This document shows positions 1,840-31,413 of a stretch of 32,158 nucleotides of DNA, in pieces. The stretch is from contig CAIPHQ010000050.1 in NCBI GenBank assembly GCA_903864895.1, positions 1 through 32,158 of the forward strand, written 5' to 3'. The notes under the pieces were generated by a model that saw only the letters and a list, made by a program, of their open reading frames with translations, did not search any database and was not told the DNA's origin. This stretch comes from an uncultured Rhodospirillales bacterium. Its GTDB lineage: Bacteria > Pseudomonadota > Alphaproteobacteria > Acetobacterales > Acetobacteraceae. Numbering within the stretch: the stretch's first letter is position 1; the number at the start of each line of letters is the position of its first letter. The position numbers and the translations under genes were made by a program.

Positions 1840-3339
1840 ATGCTGGATATCACCTTCGCCAAACCGGTCCTGCCCGCCGCCGGTGCCCTCGTGCTGCCGG
1901 TCACGGAGGACGGTCTGGCGGCGGCCGCCGCGTGGGCGGGGCTGGACGCCGCCACCGCCGGGGCCATCACCCGCGCGCTGGACGCCGCCGAGTTCAAGGG
2001 CAAGAAGGGCAGCACCGCCACCATCCTCGCCCCCGGCGGCGGGCTGTCGCGCGTGATCGCGGTCGGTCTGGGCAAGGCGGACGCACTGACCCCGCTCGGC
2101 GTGGAAGAAGCCGGCGGCAGTGCCGCCGCCCTGCTGGGCCGCGAGCCGGCCGCCACGGTCGCCGACAACGGCCTGACCGCGACGCTGGCCGCACATTTCG
2201 CGCTGGGAGCCGCGCTGCGCAGCTACCGCTTCGACCGCTACCGCACCACCGAGAAGGCCGAGGAGAAGCCGCGCCTCGCCGGGTTGACCGTGCTGTCCGC
2301 CGAGCCGGAAGCGAGTGCCGCCGTGTGGGCCGGGCTGAAGCCGGTGGCCGATGGCGTGTTTCTGGCGCGCGATCTGGTCAGTGAGCCGCCCAACGTGCTG
2401 AACCCGGAGGAGATGGCCAATCGCTGCGAGGCGCTGACCAAACTCGGGCTGCGCGTGGAAGTGCTCGGCCCGAAGGAACTGGCCAAGCTGGGCTTCGGCG
2501 CCATGCTCGGCGTGTCGCAGGGCAGCGCCAATGAGCCGCGCATGGTGGTGATGCAGTGGCTGGGTGCCTCCGGTGCCGCCAAGGGCAAGGCCAAGAAGGA
2601 GACCAAGCAGAAGCCGCTGGCCTTCATCGGCAAGGGCGTGACCTTCGACAGCGGCGGCATCAGCATCAAACCCGCCGCCGGCATGGAAGACATGAAGTGG
2701 GACATGGCCGGCGCCGGCGCCGTGATCGGGTTGATGGCCGCACTGGCCGGGCGCAAGGCCAAGGTGGACGTGGTCGGGCTGGTCGGGCTGGTGGAAAACA
2801 TGCCCAGCGGCACCGCGCAGCGCCCCGGCGACGTGGTGAAGACCTATAGCGGCCAGACGGTGGAGATCATCAACACCGACGCCGAGGGCCGCATGGTGCT
2901 GGCCGACGTGCTTTGGTACTGCCAGGAGCGGTTCGAGCCGCGCTTCATGGTCGATCTGGCCACGCTGACGGGCGCGATGGTGATCACGCTCGGCCACGAA
3001 ATCGGCGGCTTTTTCAGCAACGACGACGACCTGGCGAAAAACCTGCACGCGGCGGGCGAAGCCACCGCCGAGAAGCTGTGGCGGATGCCGCTGGGCGAGG
3101 CCTACGACAAGCAACTCAAATCCGACATCGCCGACATGAAGCACGTCGGCGGCCGCCCCGGCGGTGCGATCACGGCGGCGCAGTTCCTGCAGCGCTTCGT
3201 CAATTCCAAGCCGTGGGCGCATCTGGACATCGCGGGCATGGCGTGGAGCAGCAAGGATTCCGCCGTGGTGCCAAAGGGGGCCACTGCCTACGGCGTGCGG
3301 ATGCTGGATCGGCTGGTGGCGGAGTTCTACGAGGGGTGA
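1840..3339 (+). CDS. pepA: leucyl aminopeptidase PepA (M17)
   Basis: This is a cytosolic dizinc aminopeptidase that removes N-terminal residues from peptides; in E. coli PepA also binds DNA in Xer recombination and carAB control. The product has 499 residues, the usual length. The metal and catalytic core is intact: GKGVTFDSGGISIKP, then MKWDMAGAGAV, and NTDAEGR at residues 345-351 (Asp347, Glu349, Arg351). The N-terminal macro-like domain is present but diverged. A weak CGGAGA lies upstream of the ATG at 1840. holC follows 21 bases after the stop, the same pairing seen in many proteobacteria. A second, more divergent M17 enzyme lies at 12850-14265. Confidence 0.96.
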   Translation: MLDITFAKPVLPAAGALVLPVTEDGLAAAAAWAGLDAATAGAITRALDAAEFKGKKGSTATILAPGGGLSRVIAVGLGKADALTPLGVEEAGGSAAALLGREPAATVADNGLTATLAAHFALGAALRSYRFDRYRTTEKAEEKPRLAGLTVLSAEPEASAAVWAGLKPVADGVFLARDLVSEPPNVLNPEEMANRCEALTKLGLRVEVLGPKELAKLGFGAMLGVSQGSANEPRMVVMQWLGASGAAKGKAKKETKQKPLAFIGKGVTFDSGGISIKPAAGMEDMKWDMAGAGAVIGLMAALAGRKAKVDVVGLVGLVENMPSGTAQRPGDVVKTYSGQTVEIINTDAEGRMVLADVLWYCQERFEPRFMVDLATLTGAMVITLGHEIGGFFSNDDDLAKNLHAAGEATAEKLWRMPLGEAYDKQLKSDIADMKHVGGRPGGAITAAQFLQRFVNSKPWAHLDIAGMAWSSKDSAVVPKGATAYGVRMLDRLVAEFYEG

Positions 3340-12849: not shown

Positions 12850-14265
12850 TTATATTGCCGATTGGTTCCGTGCAGATGTCAATTCGGTAACAAATGCCTC
12901 AATCGCGCCGCAAAACGCGCGCAACCCCTGTGCATCGCCACCTTCCGGTTTTCCGGGGCGGGTGGAGTCACTCCAGGCATACATGTCGAAATGTATCCAT
13001 TTCACATCTCGTGCCACAAAACGGCGCATGAACAGCGCAGCCGTCACGGCACCGGCGAACGGTTTGTTGGCGATATTGTTCACATCTGCCGCCGCACTGT
13101 CCAGCCAAGAATCGTATCCATCCCACAATGGCAGCCGCCACAGCGGGTCGTGCAGCCGCACCCCCGCAGCCAGCACACGCTCCGACCAGCCATCATCATT
13201 GGCGAACATGGTCACCATGTCCGGCCCCAATGCCACCCGCGCCGCCCCGGTGAGTGTGGCGCAGTCCAGCAGCAGATCCGGCCCGGCGTCCGACGCCTCG
13301 GCCAGCAGGTCGGCCAGCACCAGGCGCCCCTCGGCATCCGTGTTACCCACTTCAACCGACAGGCCGCGCCGCGTGCGGATGATGTCTGACGGGCGCATGG
13401 CATGGCCGGAGATGCTGTTTTCCACGCATCCCACCCGCACCAGCAGGCGCACCGGCAAGTCGGCTTCCATCAGCACGCGGGCAATGCCCAGCACACTGGC
13501 GGCGCCGCCCATGTCCTTCTTCATCTTGATCATGCCGTCGGCGGGCTTGATGTCATACCCGCCGGTGTCGAACACCACGCCTTTGCCGCACAGCGCGATC
13601 AGCGGGCTGGCATCGGTGGCCGTGCTGCCACGCCAACTGAACCCGGCCACAACGGGCGGGCGCGATGAGCCCATGCCCACGGCGTGAACGGCCGGGTAGT
13701 CGCGCGCCAGTGCTTCCCCCTCCACCCGCATCGCCACCGCGCCGTGCCGCGCGGCAAGCGCGGTGGCCACATCGGCCAGTTCGGACGGGCCGAGCAGGTT
13801 GGCCGGGGTGTTGATAAGGTCACGCACCATCCACACCGCCGCGGCTGTGCGAAGTGCCGCAGGCAGTGGCGCATCCAGCGCGAGTTGTGCTGCTTCACGC
13901 GCAGGGGCCTTGAAGGTGCGGAACCGGTAGGCGCCAAGGCAATATCCCAGCACGGCAGCGCCAGAGTCTCCATCTGCCGGCACAAGCCGCCATGGTCCGC
14001 CGGCCGGCAAACGGTATGGAAGATCACCATACAGCAGGGGTGACGGGTCGCTGCCCAGCCCGAACACCGCACCGGATACCCCGCCTTCACCGGGCAGCAG
14101 CACCAGTTCCTGCCGGGCGGCAGCAAATCCCGCAGCGCTCAGATAGGCCTGCGCCAGCGGCGGCAGCGTGGCCAGCAGCGCCGCAAGCCCCGCAGGCCGA
14201 ACGGCGAACACCGGCCTGGCAGCAGGGCCGGCGGCACCGCACGGCAAGGCTTCATCGAACATCAT
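12850..14265 (-). CDS. leucyl aminopeptidase family protein (M17), second paralogue
   Basis: This is a 471-residue M17 metallo-aminopeptidase, divergent from the pepA product at 1840-3339. The catalytic core is intact: GKGVVFDTGGYDIKP, MIKMKKDMGGAASV, and NTDAEGRLVLADLL. The N-terminal domain (FDEALPCGAAGPAARPVF onward) does not resemble that of PepA. It belongs to the group usually annotated simply as leucyl aminopeptidase family protein. Cytosolic peptide turnover is the likely role. ATG 14265 and ATG 14262 are adjacent; the longer frame back to 14319 lacks support. It is a single gene behind a 207-bp gap from htpG on the same strand. Confidence 0.92.
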   Translation of the reverse strand: MMFDEALPCGAAGPAARPVFAVRPAGLAALLATLPPLAQAYLSAAGFAAARQELVLLPGEGGVSGAVFGLGSDPSPLLYGDLPYRLPAGGPWRLVPADGDSGAAVLGYCLGAYRFRTFKAPAREAAQLALDAPLPAALRTAAAVWMVRDLINTPANLLGPSELADVATALAARHGAVAMRVEGEALARDYPAVHAVGMGSSRPPVVAGFSWRGSTATDASPLIALCGKGVVFDTGGYDIKPADGMIKMKKDMGGAASVLGIARVLMEADLPVRLLVRVGCVENSISGHAMRPSDIIRTRRGLSVEVGNTDAEGRLVLADLLAEASDAGPDLLLDCATLTGAARVALGPDMVTMFANDDGWSERVLAAGVRLHDPLWRLPLWDGYDSWLDSAAADVNNIANKPFAGAVTAALFMRRFVARDVKWIHFDMYAWSDSTRPGKPEGGDAQGLRAFCGAIEAFVTELTSARNQSAI

Positions 14266-14392
14266 GCTGTCCCGTTCCGCGCCGCGAACGCCACAGCGCG
14301 GAATGAATTTTGCCACCATCGCCGGGCGAATACAACTGCCAGCGAAAGATCACAGGAAATCCCGGCCAAATAACCATCTGCCGGAATTTCGT

Positions 14393-28100: not shown

Positions 28101-28132
28101 TTGACAGCCAAAACTGTCAGGTTATGCTGACA
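28101..28132 (+). promoter_or_regulatory. upstream puc promoter with PpsR-like site
   Basis: TTGACA (28101-28106) and TATGCT (28123-28128), 16 bases apart, look like a sigma-70 type promoter. TGTCAGGTTATGCTGACA (28115-28132) matches the TGT-N12-ACA consensus of the PpsR/CrtJ repressor and covers the -10 box. An overlapping inverted repeat, TGACAG (28102-28107) with CTGTCA (28114-28119), also occurs. The 389-bp gap from thpR to the first pucB otherwise holds no gene. A hairpin with stems CGCAAA/TTTGCG (28147-28166) presents ACTAACAA in its loop. Confidence 0.6.
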
Positions 28133-28362: not shown

Positions 28363-28518
28363 ATGGCTGGTGATCCTGACAAAGTCTATTCAACCGGGCT
28401 GACGTTTGCTGAGGCCGAAGAACTGCACAAGCACCTCATCGACGGCACGCGCACCTTCGGCTTCATCGCCATCATCGCGCATTGCCTGGCGTTCGCATTC
28501 TCGCCCTGGCTGCACTGA
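28363..28518 (+). CDS. pucB: LH2-type light-harvesting beta subunit, without alpha partner
   Basis: This 51-residue antenna beta polypeptide is a single-helix inner membrane protein that binds bacteriochlorophyll. By comparison with Rps. acidophila LH2 beta, His22, Arg30 and His40 correspond to His12, Arg20 and His30, with His40 as the B850-type axial ligand (FIAIIAHCLAFAFSPWLH). Nothing in the sequence suggests decay, and GGAGG precedes ATG 28363. It is identical to the second beta at 43 of 51 positions; Cys41 and Phe34 are the most distinct changes. No alpha gene follows: the next 407 bases contain only the second promoter region. It is LH2-type rather than LH1-type, judged by GLTFAEAEELHKHLIDGTR. 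Confidence 0.93.
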   Translation: MAGDPDKVYSTGLTFAEAEELHKHLIDGTRTFGFIAIIAHCLAFAFSPWLH

Positions 28519-28671: not shown

Positions 28672-28703
28672 TTGACAGTCAAAATTGTCAGTATCAAACG
28701 ACA
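28672..28703 (+). promoter_or_regulatory. second puc promoter region with PpsR-like site
   Basis: TTGACAGTCAAAATTGTCAG (28672-28691) matches the element at 28101-28120 at 18 of 20 positions. TGT (28686-28688), 12 bases and ACA (28701-28703) form a second PpsR/CrtJ-like site. ACTAACAA (28723-28730) recurs at nearly the same distance as upstream of the first pucB. No clear -10 box was found. The rest of the 407-bp gap between the two pucB genes holds no credible gene and no trace of a pucA. Confidence 0.55.
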
Positions 28704-28925: not shown

Positions 28926-29081
28926 ATGTCTGGTGATGCCGATAAAGTCTACTCAACCGGCTTGACCTTCGCGGAAGCCGAAGAACTGCACAAGCACCTT
29001 ATCGAAGGCACGCGCTCGTTCGGTGCCATCGCACTGCTGGCGCATGTGCTTGCTTTCGCCTTCTCACCTTGGCTGCACTAA
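28926..29081 (+). CDS. pucB: LH2-type light-harvesting beta subunit
   Basis: This 51-residue beta polypeptide of the peripheral antenna has His22, Arg30 and His40 at the ligand positions (SFGAIALLAHVLAFAFSPWLH). AGGGAG lies nine bases before ATG 28926. pucA follows 12 bases after the stop, the usual beta-alpha order. It differs from the first beta mainly in the membrane helix (Ala34, Leu37, Leu38, Val41). Confidence 0.96.
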   Translation: MSGDADKVYSTGLTFAEAEELHKHLIEGTRSFGAIALLAHVLAFAFSPWLH

Positions 29082-29093
29082 AGGGAGTATAAA

Positions 29094-29294
29094 ATGAACC
29101 AAGCTCGTATTTGGCTGGTGGTTAAGCCGAGCGTCGGCGTGCCCATCCTGCTGATCGCCGTCGTGATTGCGGCGCTGATGGTGCACGTGATGATCCTCAC
29201 GCACACCACGTGGTTCCCGGCATTCCTGCAGGGCCATGCCCGCGCGGCGATGAACCTGCTCGCGCCGGCCGCATCGATGCTGGGTCTGGCCTGA
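29094..29294 (+). CDS. pucA: LH2-type light-harvesting alpha subunit, B800-820 signature
   Basis: This 66-residue antenna alpha polypeptide begins MNQARIWLVVKPSVGVP like Rps. acidophila LH2 alpha (same numbering). His31 is the B850 ligand and formyl-Met1 the usual B800 ligand. The segment THTTWFPAFLQG places Phe44 and Leu45 where B800-850 proteins have Tyr and Trp; this is the known change in the B800-820 (LH3) complex. The C-terminal tail (ARAAMNLLAPAASMLGLA) is longer than the 53-residue reference. AAGGGAG lies 8 bases before ATG 29094. Confidence 0.95.
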   Translation: MNQARIWLVVKPSVGVPILLIAVVIAALMVHVMILTHTTWFPAFLQGHARAAMNLLAPAASMLGLA

Positions 29295-29394: not shown

Positions 29395-30783
29395 ATGAAC
29401 CGCGTCAGCCAGAAGCTTATGAGCACCTGGGTCCGCCTGGGCCCGCGCTTCCTGCCATTCGCCGATGCGGCCACGCCGGAACTGCCGTTGTCGCGCCTGC
29501 TGCGTCTGTCGCTGTTCCAGGTTTCGGTCGGCATGGCGCTGGTGCTGCTGATCGGCACGCTGAACCGGGTGATGATCGTCGAACTCGACGTCCCAGCCTC
29601 GCTGGTCGGCATCATGATCTCGCTGCCGCTGGTCTTCGCACCGTTCCGCGCCGTCATCGGCTTCCGGTCGGACACGCACCGTTCGGCCCTTGGCTGGCGG
29701 CGGGTGCCGTTCATCTGGCGCGGCACCATGATTCAATTCGGCGGACTGGCCATCATGCCGTTCGCCCTGCTGGTGCTGTCGGGCGGCGGTGACGCCGCGA
29801 AATATCCGGTTGAACTCGGCTGGGCCGGAGCGGGGCTCGCGTTCCTGCTGGTCGGTGCCGGTCTGCACACGGTGCAGACCGTGGGTCTGGCGCTGGCCAC
29901 CGACCTTGCGCCGGCGGAAGCGCGCCCGAAAGTTGTCGGGCTGATGTATGTGATGTTGCTGTTCGGCATGATTGCCAGCGCCCTGATCTTCGGGCTGTTG
30001 CTGGCCGATTTCTCGCCGATGAAGCTGGTGCAGGTCATCCAGGGGTCCGCCGTGGCGACCATGGTGTTGAACTGCCTGGCGCTGTGGAAGCAGGAGGGGC
30101 GCAACCCCAATCGCGGCAAATCCTCCCGCCCGGCGCCGACGTTCCGGGATTCGTGGGACAATTTCGTGCAGGGCGGCCACGCCGTCCGCCGCCTTGTCGC
30201 CGTCGGCCTCGGCACGCTCGGCTTCAGCATGGAAGACGTGCTGCTGGAACCGTATGGCGGGCAGATCCTGCACCTGACGGTCGGCTCCACCACCAAACTC
30301 ACCGCCACCTTGGCCATTGGCGGGCTGATCGGGTTCGGACTGGCGTCCCGCGTGCTCAGCCGGGGCTTCGACCCGTTCCGCATGGCAAGCTACGGCGCGC
30401 TGATCGGCGTACCCGCGTTTCTGCTGGTGATTGCCGCAGGCCCCGCCGACTCGGCGGTGCTGTTCGGGCTTGGCACGGCGCTGATCGGTTTCGGCGGCGG
30501 GTTGTTCGGCCATGGCACGCTGACGGCCACCATGAACCTCGCCCCGCCCGGCCAGAGCGGACTGGCACTGGGCGCATGGGGCGCGGTGCAGGCCACGGCG
30601 GCCGGTGTGGGCGTGGCGCTGGGCGGCATCATCCGCGATGTGGTCGCCAACCAGCATGCGGGGCAGGCGTTCGGCCCGGCAGCGGGGTATGATCTGGTCT
30701 ATCTGCTGGAAGTGCTACTGCTGTTCGCCGCGCTGGCCGCGATGCTGCCGCTGATGCGCGGGGCGAGGCTGGCGCAGAACTGA
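29395..30783 (+). CDS. pucC: light-harvesting complex assembly protein PucC (BCH family MFS)
   Basis: PucC-type proteins are 12-helix members of the major facilitator superfamily needed for assembly of LH2, probably in bacteriochlorophyll delivery or shepherding. The 462-residue product has LSRLLRLSLFQVSVGMALVL, GTLNRVMIVELDVPASLVG, FRAVIGFRSDTHRSALGWRR and SMEDVLLEPYGGQIL, all characteristic of the LhaA/PucC family. ATG 29395 is preceded by GGCAGGCAGG. It is 100 bases behind pucA, with a hairpin between, so it is expected to be expressed from the puc promoters at a lower level. Confidence 0.96.
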   Translation: MNRVSQKLMSTWVRLGPRFLPFADAATPELPLSRLLRLSLFQVSVGMALVLLIGTLNRVMIVELDVPASLVGIMISLPLVFAPFRAVIGFRSDTHRSALGWRRVPFIWRGTMIQFGGLAIMPFALLVLSGGGDAAKYPVELGWAGAGLAFLLVGAGLHTVQTVGLALATDLAPAEARPKVVGLMYVMLLFGMIASALIFGLLLADFSPMKLVQVIQGSAVATMVLNCLALWKQEGRNPNRGKSSRPAPTFRDSWDNFVQGGHAVRRLVAVGLGTLGFSMEDVLLEPYGGQILHLTVGSTTKLTATLAIGGLIGFGLASRVLSRGFDPFRMASYGALIGVPAFLLVIAAGPADSAVLFGLGTALIGFGGGLFGHGTLTATMNLAPPGQSGLALGAWGAVQATAAGVGVALGGIIRDVVANQHAGQAFGPAAGYDLVYLLEVLLLFAALAAMLPLMRGARLAQN

Positions 30784-30819: not shown

Positions 30820-31413
30820 ATGAACATCGCGCTTCGCAAGCCGCGCATGTCGCGGGAAGACTTTTTCGTCTGGGCTGAAGCCCAGAACGAACGCTTCGAG
30901 TTTGACGGGTTTGCCCCGGTGGCGATGACCGGGGGGAATAACCGGCACAGCCTGATCAGCCTGAACGTCCATGCGGCTCTGCGATCATACTTGAGCGGCA
31001 AACCTTGCCGCCCGCTCGGTCCAGATGCGGGGCTTCGCACTATCGGCGACGCTGTGCGCTACCCGGATGCGCTTGTTACCTGCTCAAAATTCGATGAACT
31101 CGCGCGCGAAGTGCCCGGCGTGGTCGTGGTGTTCGAGGTACTCAGCCCTACGTCCGGCCACGTGGACCGGATCGTCAAGCTGCTGGAATACCGCGCGGTG
31201 GCGTCCATCCGCCGCTACGTGATCGTGGAATATGCCAGCGCCGCCGTCACCGTGCACGCGCGCGCCGAAGCAGGGGCGGACTGGACCACCACGGCGCTGA
31301 CCGGCGAGGGCAGTCTGGACTTGCCCGAGATTGGCATCACGGTGCCGGTCGCGGACCTGTATCGCGGGACCGAGCTTGAACCCGGCAGCAGCCCGGACGC
31401 CGCTGCCGGATAA
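30820..31413 (+). CDS. Uma2 family endonuclease-like protein
   Basis: This 197-residue protein has the PD-(D/E)XK-type Uma2 fold: MSREDFFVWAEAQNERFEFDG at the N-terminus, RYPDALVTC with the metal-binding Asp, and VVFEVLSPTSGHVDRIVKL with the Glu. Uma2 proteins are numerous in cyanobacteria and also occur in phototrophic proteobacteria; their function is unknown, and nuclease activity is only predicted. ATG 30820 starts 36 bases after pucC on the same strand, but a shared role is not evident. Confidence 0.88.
   Translation: MNIALRKPRMSREDFFVWAEAQNERFEFDGFAPVAMTGGNNRHSLISLNVHAALRSYLSGKPCRPLGPDAGLRTIGDAVRYPDALVTCSKFDELAREVPGVVVVFEVLSPTSGHVDRIVKLLEYRAVASIRRYVIVEYASAAVTVHARAEAGADWTTTALTGEGSLDLPEIGITVPVADLYRGTELEPGSSPDAAAG

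Follow-up and report, generated by a model that had tools for sequence, protein, structure and literature searches.

The only LH2 alpha found in a Rhodospirillales draft genome probably forms a blue-shifted peripheral antenna

Our analysis suggests that this uncultured bacterium relies on a single peripheral antenna that is likely to absorb to the blue of a B800-850 LH2, a colour that we deduce from the residues of its alpha subunit. We favor, with moderate confidence, a model in which pucB1-pucB2-pucA-pucC encodes the sole peripheral antenna of the organism, an ordinary LH2-type ring with its B800 intact and with B850-type bacteriochlorophylls (BChls) absorbing at about 815-826 nm. According to this model, alpha Phe44 and Leu45 would be unable to hydrogen-bond the C3-acetyl groups, which would blue-shift the B850-type BChls, and production of the complex would follow any release from PpsR-type repression, with no low-light exchange for another antenna. 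An LH2 of such higher energy would lessen back-transfer from LH1, as has been argued for LH3 (PMC8775250).

The puc locus

The antenna genes lie near one end of the window, by which we mean the whole stretch of 32,158 nucleotides that was analysed (Table 1). The product of pucA scores 41 bits against PF00556 (cut-off 23), carries the frame residues Met1, Trp7, His31 (the ligand) and Trp40, and is encoded beside pucB and pucC genes in a genome with a separate LH1, all of which identify it as an LH2-type alpha chain. phmmer (HMMER) aligned it without gaps to the LH2 (1KZU, Tyr44-Trp45) and the LH3 (1IJD, Phe44-Leu45) of Rbl. acidophilus, in the latter case up to residue 52. The translation and this alignment agree with the sequence-only reading, which had placed Phe44-Leu45 where Tyr44-Trp45 would be expected within the same Met1, Trp7, His31 and Trp40 frame. 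The NCBIfam models listed for the three chains are all of LH1 and all under cut-off (20.7 against 35 for the alpha; 58.1 and 58.5 against 61 for the betas); our LH2 label rests on a separate LH1 pair beside the reaction-centre genes and on the nearest solved chains being those of LH2 and LH3. The C-terminal tail, described earlier as unusually long, turns out to be on the short side for the family: at 66 aa the chain is longer than the Rbl. acidophilus alpha (53 aa), but 28 of 32 family alphas are longer still and 3 are shorter (range 63-129, median 80, from a table typed by hand in which some start codons were adjusted manually).

Table 1. Features of the puc locus (positions in the window)
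Feature	Position	Strand	Length	Basis
Promoter-like TTGACA-16-TATGCT, overlapping the pucB1 PpsR/CrtJ-type site	28101..28128	+		
PpsR/CrtJ-type site TGT-N12-ACA TGTCAGGTTATGCTGACA, 248 nt upstream of pucB1	28115..28132	+		motif scan
pucB1, LH2 beta, no alpha directly after	28363..28518	+	51 aa	PF00556, 32.3 bits
PpsR/CrtJ-type site TGT-N12-ACA TGTCAGTATCAAACGACA, 240 nt upstream of pucB2	28686..28703	+		1 mismatch to TGTCA-N8-TGACA
pucB2, LH2 beta	28926..29081	+	51 aa	PF00556, 35.6 bits
pucA, LH2 alpha	29094..29294	+	66 aa	translation; PF00556; gapless alignment to 1KZU and 1IJD
pucA residue run Trp40-Phe41-Pro-Ala-Phe44-Leu45-Gln-Gly47	within 29094..29294	+		translation
pucA codons 41-45, tuning segment Phe41-Pro-Ala-Phe44-Leu45 (Phe41 TTC, 29214-29216; Phe44 TTC, 29223-29225; Leu45 CTG, 29226-29228)	29214..29228	+		
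pucC, PUCC-family MFS protein, presumed antenna-assembly factor	29395..30783	+	462 aa	PF03209, 513 bits

Two further features of the window deserve mention. A Uma2-family protein is encoded directly 3' of pucC (30820-31413; PF05685, 69 bits), and two long open reading frames on opposite strands (1840-3339 and 12850-14319) look by eye like leucyl aminopeptidases.

Antenna and photosynthesis genes elsewhere in the genome

The sequence-only reading had noted that pucA is the only alpha gene in the window and had pointed to a genome search for further copies with Tyr-Trp. That search found no other LH2 alpha, extending the earlier observation to the whole draft (5.08 Mb in 599 contigs, 99.91% complete, 4.54% contamination). 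PF00556 exceeds its cut-off at five places, namely an LH1 pair on contig C171, the two betas and pucA; three further places, with E values of 2.9-3.8, fall under it. Searched with pucA, the draft returns only pucA itself at E <= 10. We thus rejected the idea of a hidden second pucA, none having emerged from PF00556 or from the alpha searches. A tblastn search of plasmids with the alpha chain gave no match. The LH1 pair adjoins pufC (485 bits) and what appear by eye to be pufL and pufM, and the LH1 alpha is ordinary in appearance, again judged by eye. Because the genome encodes both AcsF (486 bits, cut-off 192.5) and BchE (803 bits, cut-off 481), bacteriochlorophyll synthesis should be possible with or without oxygen.

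Predicted colour of the antenna

The roles that we assign to alpha residues 41, 44 and 45 follow Table 1 of PMC9618040 together with PMC6988754. In 1NKZ, the alpha-B850 has its C3-acetyl bonded by Trp45 of the alpha chain, and the beta-B850 has its own bonded by Tyr44 of the neighbouring chain; in the complex of Rbl. acidophilus 7050, the source of 1IJD, Tyr41 is the sole remaining donor and the band lies at 824 nm; and in Rps. palustris PucD no such bond is left and absorption is at 803 nm (PMC9618040). Loss of the bonds at 44 and 45 shifts the B850 both in Rba. sphaeroides mutants and in natural LH3 (PMC8775250, PMC9618040), and modelling attributes 140-220 cm-1 to each bond, with an extra 151 cm-1 for the alpha-BChl once Tyr41 is lost (PMC6988754). 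In pucA no hydrogen bond to a BChl C3-acetyl can come from the side chains at 41, 44 or 45, and the aromatic donors at 44 and 45 that mark a B800-850 LH2 are absent. Given this lack of donors, Ala27, and the published effects of the individual bonds, we bracket the colour at about 803-826 nm. A blue shift is further supported by the match to 1IJD at positions 44 and 45, and by the same pair and the same gene order in a congener (genome G084).

Where in this bracket the band would fall may depend on residue 41. Tyr41 of 1IJD bonds the alpha-BChl acetyl and is the last C3-acetyl bond of that LH3; since pucA has Phe41 in its place, a larger shift is possible. We nevertheless favor 815-826 nm, for two reasons. 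The Tyr44Phe/Tyr45Leu mutant of Rba. sphaeroides, in which Tyr-Tyr becomes Phe-Leu, is a B800-826 complex (PMC8775250), and the LH2 alpha of that species has Leu rather than Tyr at position 41 (7PBW sequence), which means that 826 nm is reached without Tyr41. In addition, the chain named B-800/820 alpha in PDB 9DWZ, whose colour is taken from this database name, reads Phe41-Phe44-Gln45 in a near-identical context (HTTWFPAFxQG); it resembles pucA in Phe41, Phe44, a residue other than Tyr or Trp at 45 and the HTTWFPAF stretch, and differs in having Gln45 where pucA has Leu45. If its name is apt, Tyr41 may be inessential to a B800-820 antenna.

Real weight must be given to the possibility that the 850-type band has merged with B800 at about 803-812 nm, as in LH4, since Phe41, Phe44 and Leu45 are all non-donors and would leave no C3-acetyl bond; we regard this as a serious but lesser contender. 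One precedent is the 803 nm PucD of Rps. palustris (PMC9618040), which like pucA lacks a donor at all three positions. That paper is inconsistent on the PucD residues, which appear in one place as Met44-Phe45 and in another as Phe44-Met45; the latter order is that of 7ZE3, which also has Met26 and Val41 and which we take, from its Met26-Phe44-Met45, to be the PucD chain. The further 151 cm-1 modelled for the alpha-BChl upon loss of Tyr41 points the same way, as does the substitution of Ala27 in pucA for Ser27, the third bond donor of Rba. sphaeroides, although removal of Ser27 alone was without effect on the B850 (PMC9618040). Two further observations add to the case. Aerobic phototrophs with a single 'LH4' peak near 806 nm share F44L45 according to a 2025 review (PMC12654162), and those of the Roseobacter denitrificans type combine Phe44-Leu45 with a sole peripheral antenna, as this genome does; and Rhodopseudomonas strains TIE-1 and 1a1 encode an LH3-type alpha and show no clear 820 nm peak (PMC5069747). 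On the other side, the Rhodopseudomonas rule for LH4 calls for M26, F44 and M45 (PMC5069747, Table 2), whereas pucA has Ala26, Phe44 and Leu45, and with Phe41 it also departs from the Val41 of PucD. The Rba. sphaeroides Phe-Leu mutant, moreover, stays at 826 nm.

It is improbable that absorption at about 840-850 nm is retained because some other group, such as a Trp of the beta chain, bonds the C3-acetyls. A beta Trp does bond the beta-B850 in Phs. molischianum LH2 (PMC9618040), and both betas here have a Trp near the C terminus (SPWLH). The same Pro-Trp, however, also occurs in betas whose neighbouring alpha is Tyr-Trp (L077, L081-L083 and L086-L088 are examples and carry no frequency, the beta search pattern having required a C-terminal Trp), and the beta Trp is therefore no special compensation for the alpha residues found here. 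PDB 8Z81, whose alpha reads Tyr41-Phe44-Phe45, could be a counter-example to the blue-shift rule; against this, published spectra of complexes with non-donors at both 44 and 45 place the long band at about 803-826 nm in the sources that we consulted.

These comparisons qualify what had been read from the motif. That the antenna is blue-shifted remains the best inference from the lost bonds at 44 and 45, but Phe44-Leu45 neither fixes the band at about 820 nm nor is confined to B800-820 antennae: published complexes with the pair absorb from about 805 to 826 nm, and the Tyr41 bond of 1IJD is absent here. We likewise rejected an equation of the motif alone with 820 nm, because antennae at about 806 nm share F44L45 and 1IJD keeps its Tyr41 bond. 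Phe44-Leu45 by itself should not serve to annotate a 'B800-820' antenna.

A congener that differs at residue 41

The genus is represented by two genomes, this one and the congener, which has the gene order pucB1-pucB2-pucA-pucC with both beta genes and, by eye, the same upstream neighbours. Its sole LH2 alpha also has Phe44-Leu45, but Tyr41 in place of Phe41. One could imagine that the only LH2 of the genus is blue-shifted to different extents, to near 803-812 nm here (Phe41) and to near 820 nm in the congener (Tyr41), with the second beta gene of both species, under its own PpsR-type site, supplying a second beta isoform for the same alpha; we consider this combined scenario rather unlikely. 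The Phe41/Tyr41 pair would be a natural test of what the third hydrogen bond contributes.

Beta genes and regulation

Both betas carry His22, Arg30 and His40 (Rba. sphaeroides LH2 beta numbering), which are among the contacts described in PMC8775250 (His22 and Arg30) and PMC9618040 (His40), and the B800 ring should therefore be kept and normal. The two proteins are identical at 43 of 51 residues, with a dS of 0.90 and a dN of 0.11. Across six comparisons among the four beta genes of the two species dN/dS is 0.06-0.17, values that are rough given such short genes, and both beta genes look constrained. A search of the pucB1-pucB2 spacer for an alpha remnant gave no coding-strand match with E < 1; the congener's spacer has one antisense match of 26 aa to the alpha (E 0.002 in a tiny database) that is probably compositional. 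The arrangement of pucB1 is a curious one: it is a beta gene with a promoter-like sequence and a PpsR-type site of its own yet with no alpha after it, and the situation in the congener is similar. Its likeliest product, judging from the sequences, is a second beta isoform for the single alpha. Decay or disuse of the locus, with residues 41, 44 and 45 reflecting drift, could be read into a pucB1 that lacks an alpha gene, but is very improbable with all four reading frames open, dN/dS of both beta genes well under 1, and PpsR-type sites and gene order kept in the congener.

Upstream of each beta gene is a match to TGT-N12-ACA, which we take to be the PpsR/CrtJ-type consensus. The stricter form TGTCA-N8-TGACA, with at most one mismatch, occurs three times in the window, with two of these occurrences overlapping, against 0.43 expected, and 1 of 100 shuffles had as many. 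In the congener, PpsR-type sites stand upstream of the beta genes at distances of 247 and 267 nt, with an additional one 273 nt ahead of the first beta gene. Two PpsR/CrtJ genes exceed the family cut-off in the genome studied here (C171:24664-25998 and C248:3127-4422). The candidate sites would fit ordinary repression of puc by PpsR and have no bearing on low light, and two PpsR genes with two PpsR-type sites fit normal puc regulation.

The low-light role that had been proposed for the antenna finds no support in the genome. In Rbl. acidophilus, LH3 is a low-light and low-temperature alternative to a Tyr-Trp LH2, whereas no such partner was found in this draft, which leaves a low-light switch with no alternative LH2 to swap with. 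Sole or constitutive blue-shifted LH2 complexes are, furthermore, already in print: that of Rhodoferax antarcticus has Phe44-Phe45 and absorbs at 819 nm (PMC5374385), and that of Pseudohaliea rubra absorbs at 804/821 nm independently of light (PMC3679898). In both of these organisms a blue-shifted peripheral antenna occurs with no B800-850 seen; their spectra were measured, whereas the colour proposed here is deduced from residues, and Rfx. antarcticus differs additionally in residue 45 and in having its puc genes within the photosynthesis cluster. LH2 has also been described in Rhodopila globiformis (PMC9640540). Among the matches listed, judged by titles and the beginnings of abstracts, we found no publication on this locus in the literature on LH3, B800-820 or pucA, on LH2 of Acetobacteraceae or Rhodopila, or on pucA from metagenomes and lakes, and the main text of an Acetobacteraceae phylogeny paper (PMC10715153) contains neither 'LH2' nor 'puc'. 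The locus would be another example of a sole blue-shifted antenna, and its motif is a variation common among relatives; it adds a lineage whose peripheral antenna is apparently fixed in blue-shifted form.

Residues 44 and 45 among relatives

A ten-row LH2 alpha profile matched 31 of the 397 genomes in our sample of the family, at 37 places. Five places whose match ends at profile position 37 (four in G143, one in G394) were excluded from the count of residues 44 and 45, and the remaining 32, from 30 genomes and tallied by hand, read Phe-Leu (12), Tyr-Trp (10), Tyr-Tyr (3), Phe-Tyr (3), Phe-Trp (2) and Phe-Phe (2). With 12 of 32 family alphas sharing it, Phe44-Leu45 is not rare but ordinary. 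Phe41 accompanies it in nine of the twelve and Tyr41 in three. Across the class, 12 genomes out of a sample of 385 match, this one included, and Phe-Leu occurs in 2 of the 12 places read (of 13 outside the present genome, L110 being unreadable by our patterns). Phylum-wide, 12 of 398 genomes match, and 6 of the 10 places not already counted are Phe-Leu; all six belong to one family, f23, and have Val41 where pucA has Phe41. The f23 sequences presumably resemble the aerobic-phototroph F44L45 group, for example that of Roseobacter denitrificans. Scanning named genomes with sequence patterns yielded 23 loci, of which 11 are Phe-Leu; since HTTWFPAF was among the search peptides, this set is skewed in favour of Ala-Phe.

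A tree of PucC, used as a proxy for pucA, comprises 35 of 39 rows that passed a length limit (L048, L068, L080 and L091 were left out), 16 of them Phe-Leu; seven come from eight non-family rows chosen by hand from the 23 pattern-scan loci. It requires at least six changes of the 44/45 label, at least three of them forced by well-supported branches, bearing in mind that 13 of 32 inner branches are open, that changes may run in either direction and that gene exchange between genomes would also produce them. A tree constrained to keep all the Phe-Leu rows in one group is rejected (p-AU 1.1e-8); this group was defined with the sequences already in view. Genus g45 contains two Phe-Leu species (L066 and L067) and one Tyr-Trp species (L077), and the PucC sequences of the three form one well-supported clade. 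These results suggest that residues 44 and 45 have switched state repeatedly in one bacterial family, and even within one genus.

The survey also turned up several unusual antenna sets. Genome G269 of the family encodes a Phe-Trp and, separately, a Phe-Leu LH2 alpha (L064 and L097), and is a candidate for two spectral forms per cell. In genus g73, Phe-Leu LH2 alphas (L076, L078, L079 and L085) have Tyr or His in place of the usual Trp40. Each of three genomes of genus g77 has 14 to 18 antenna-family matches; a search of the three for an acidophilus-type LH2 alpha found none, with weak partial matches in G143. Several pairs of G143 (L153, L154 and L095) resemble another LH type, with a Phe-Asn-Trp-Ile C terminus.
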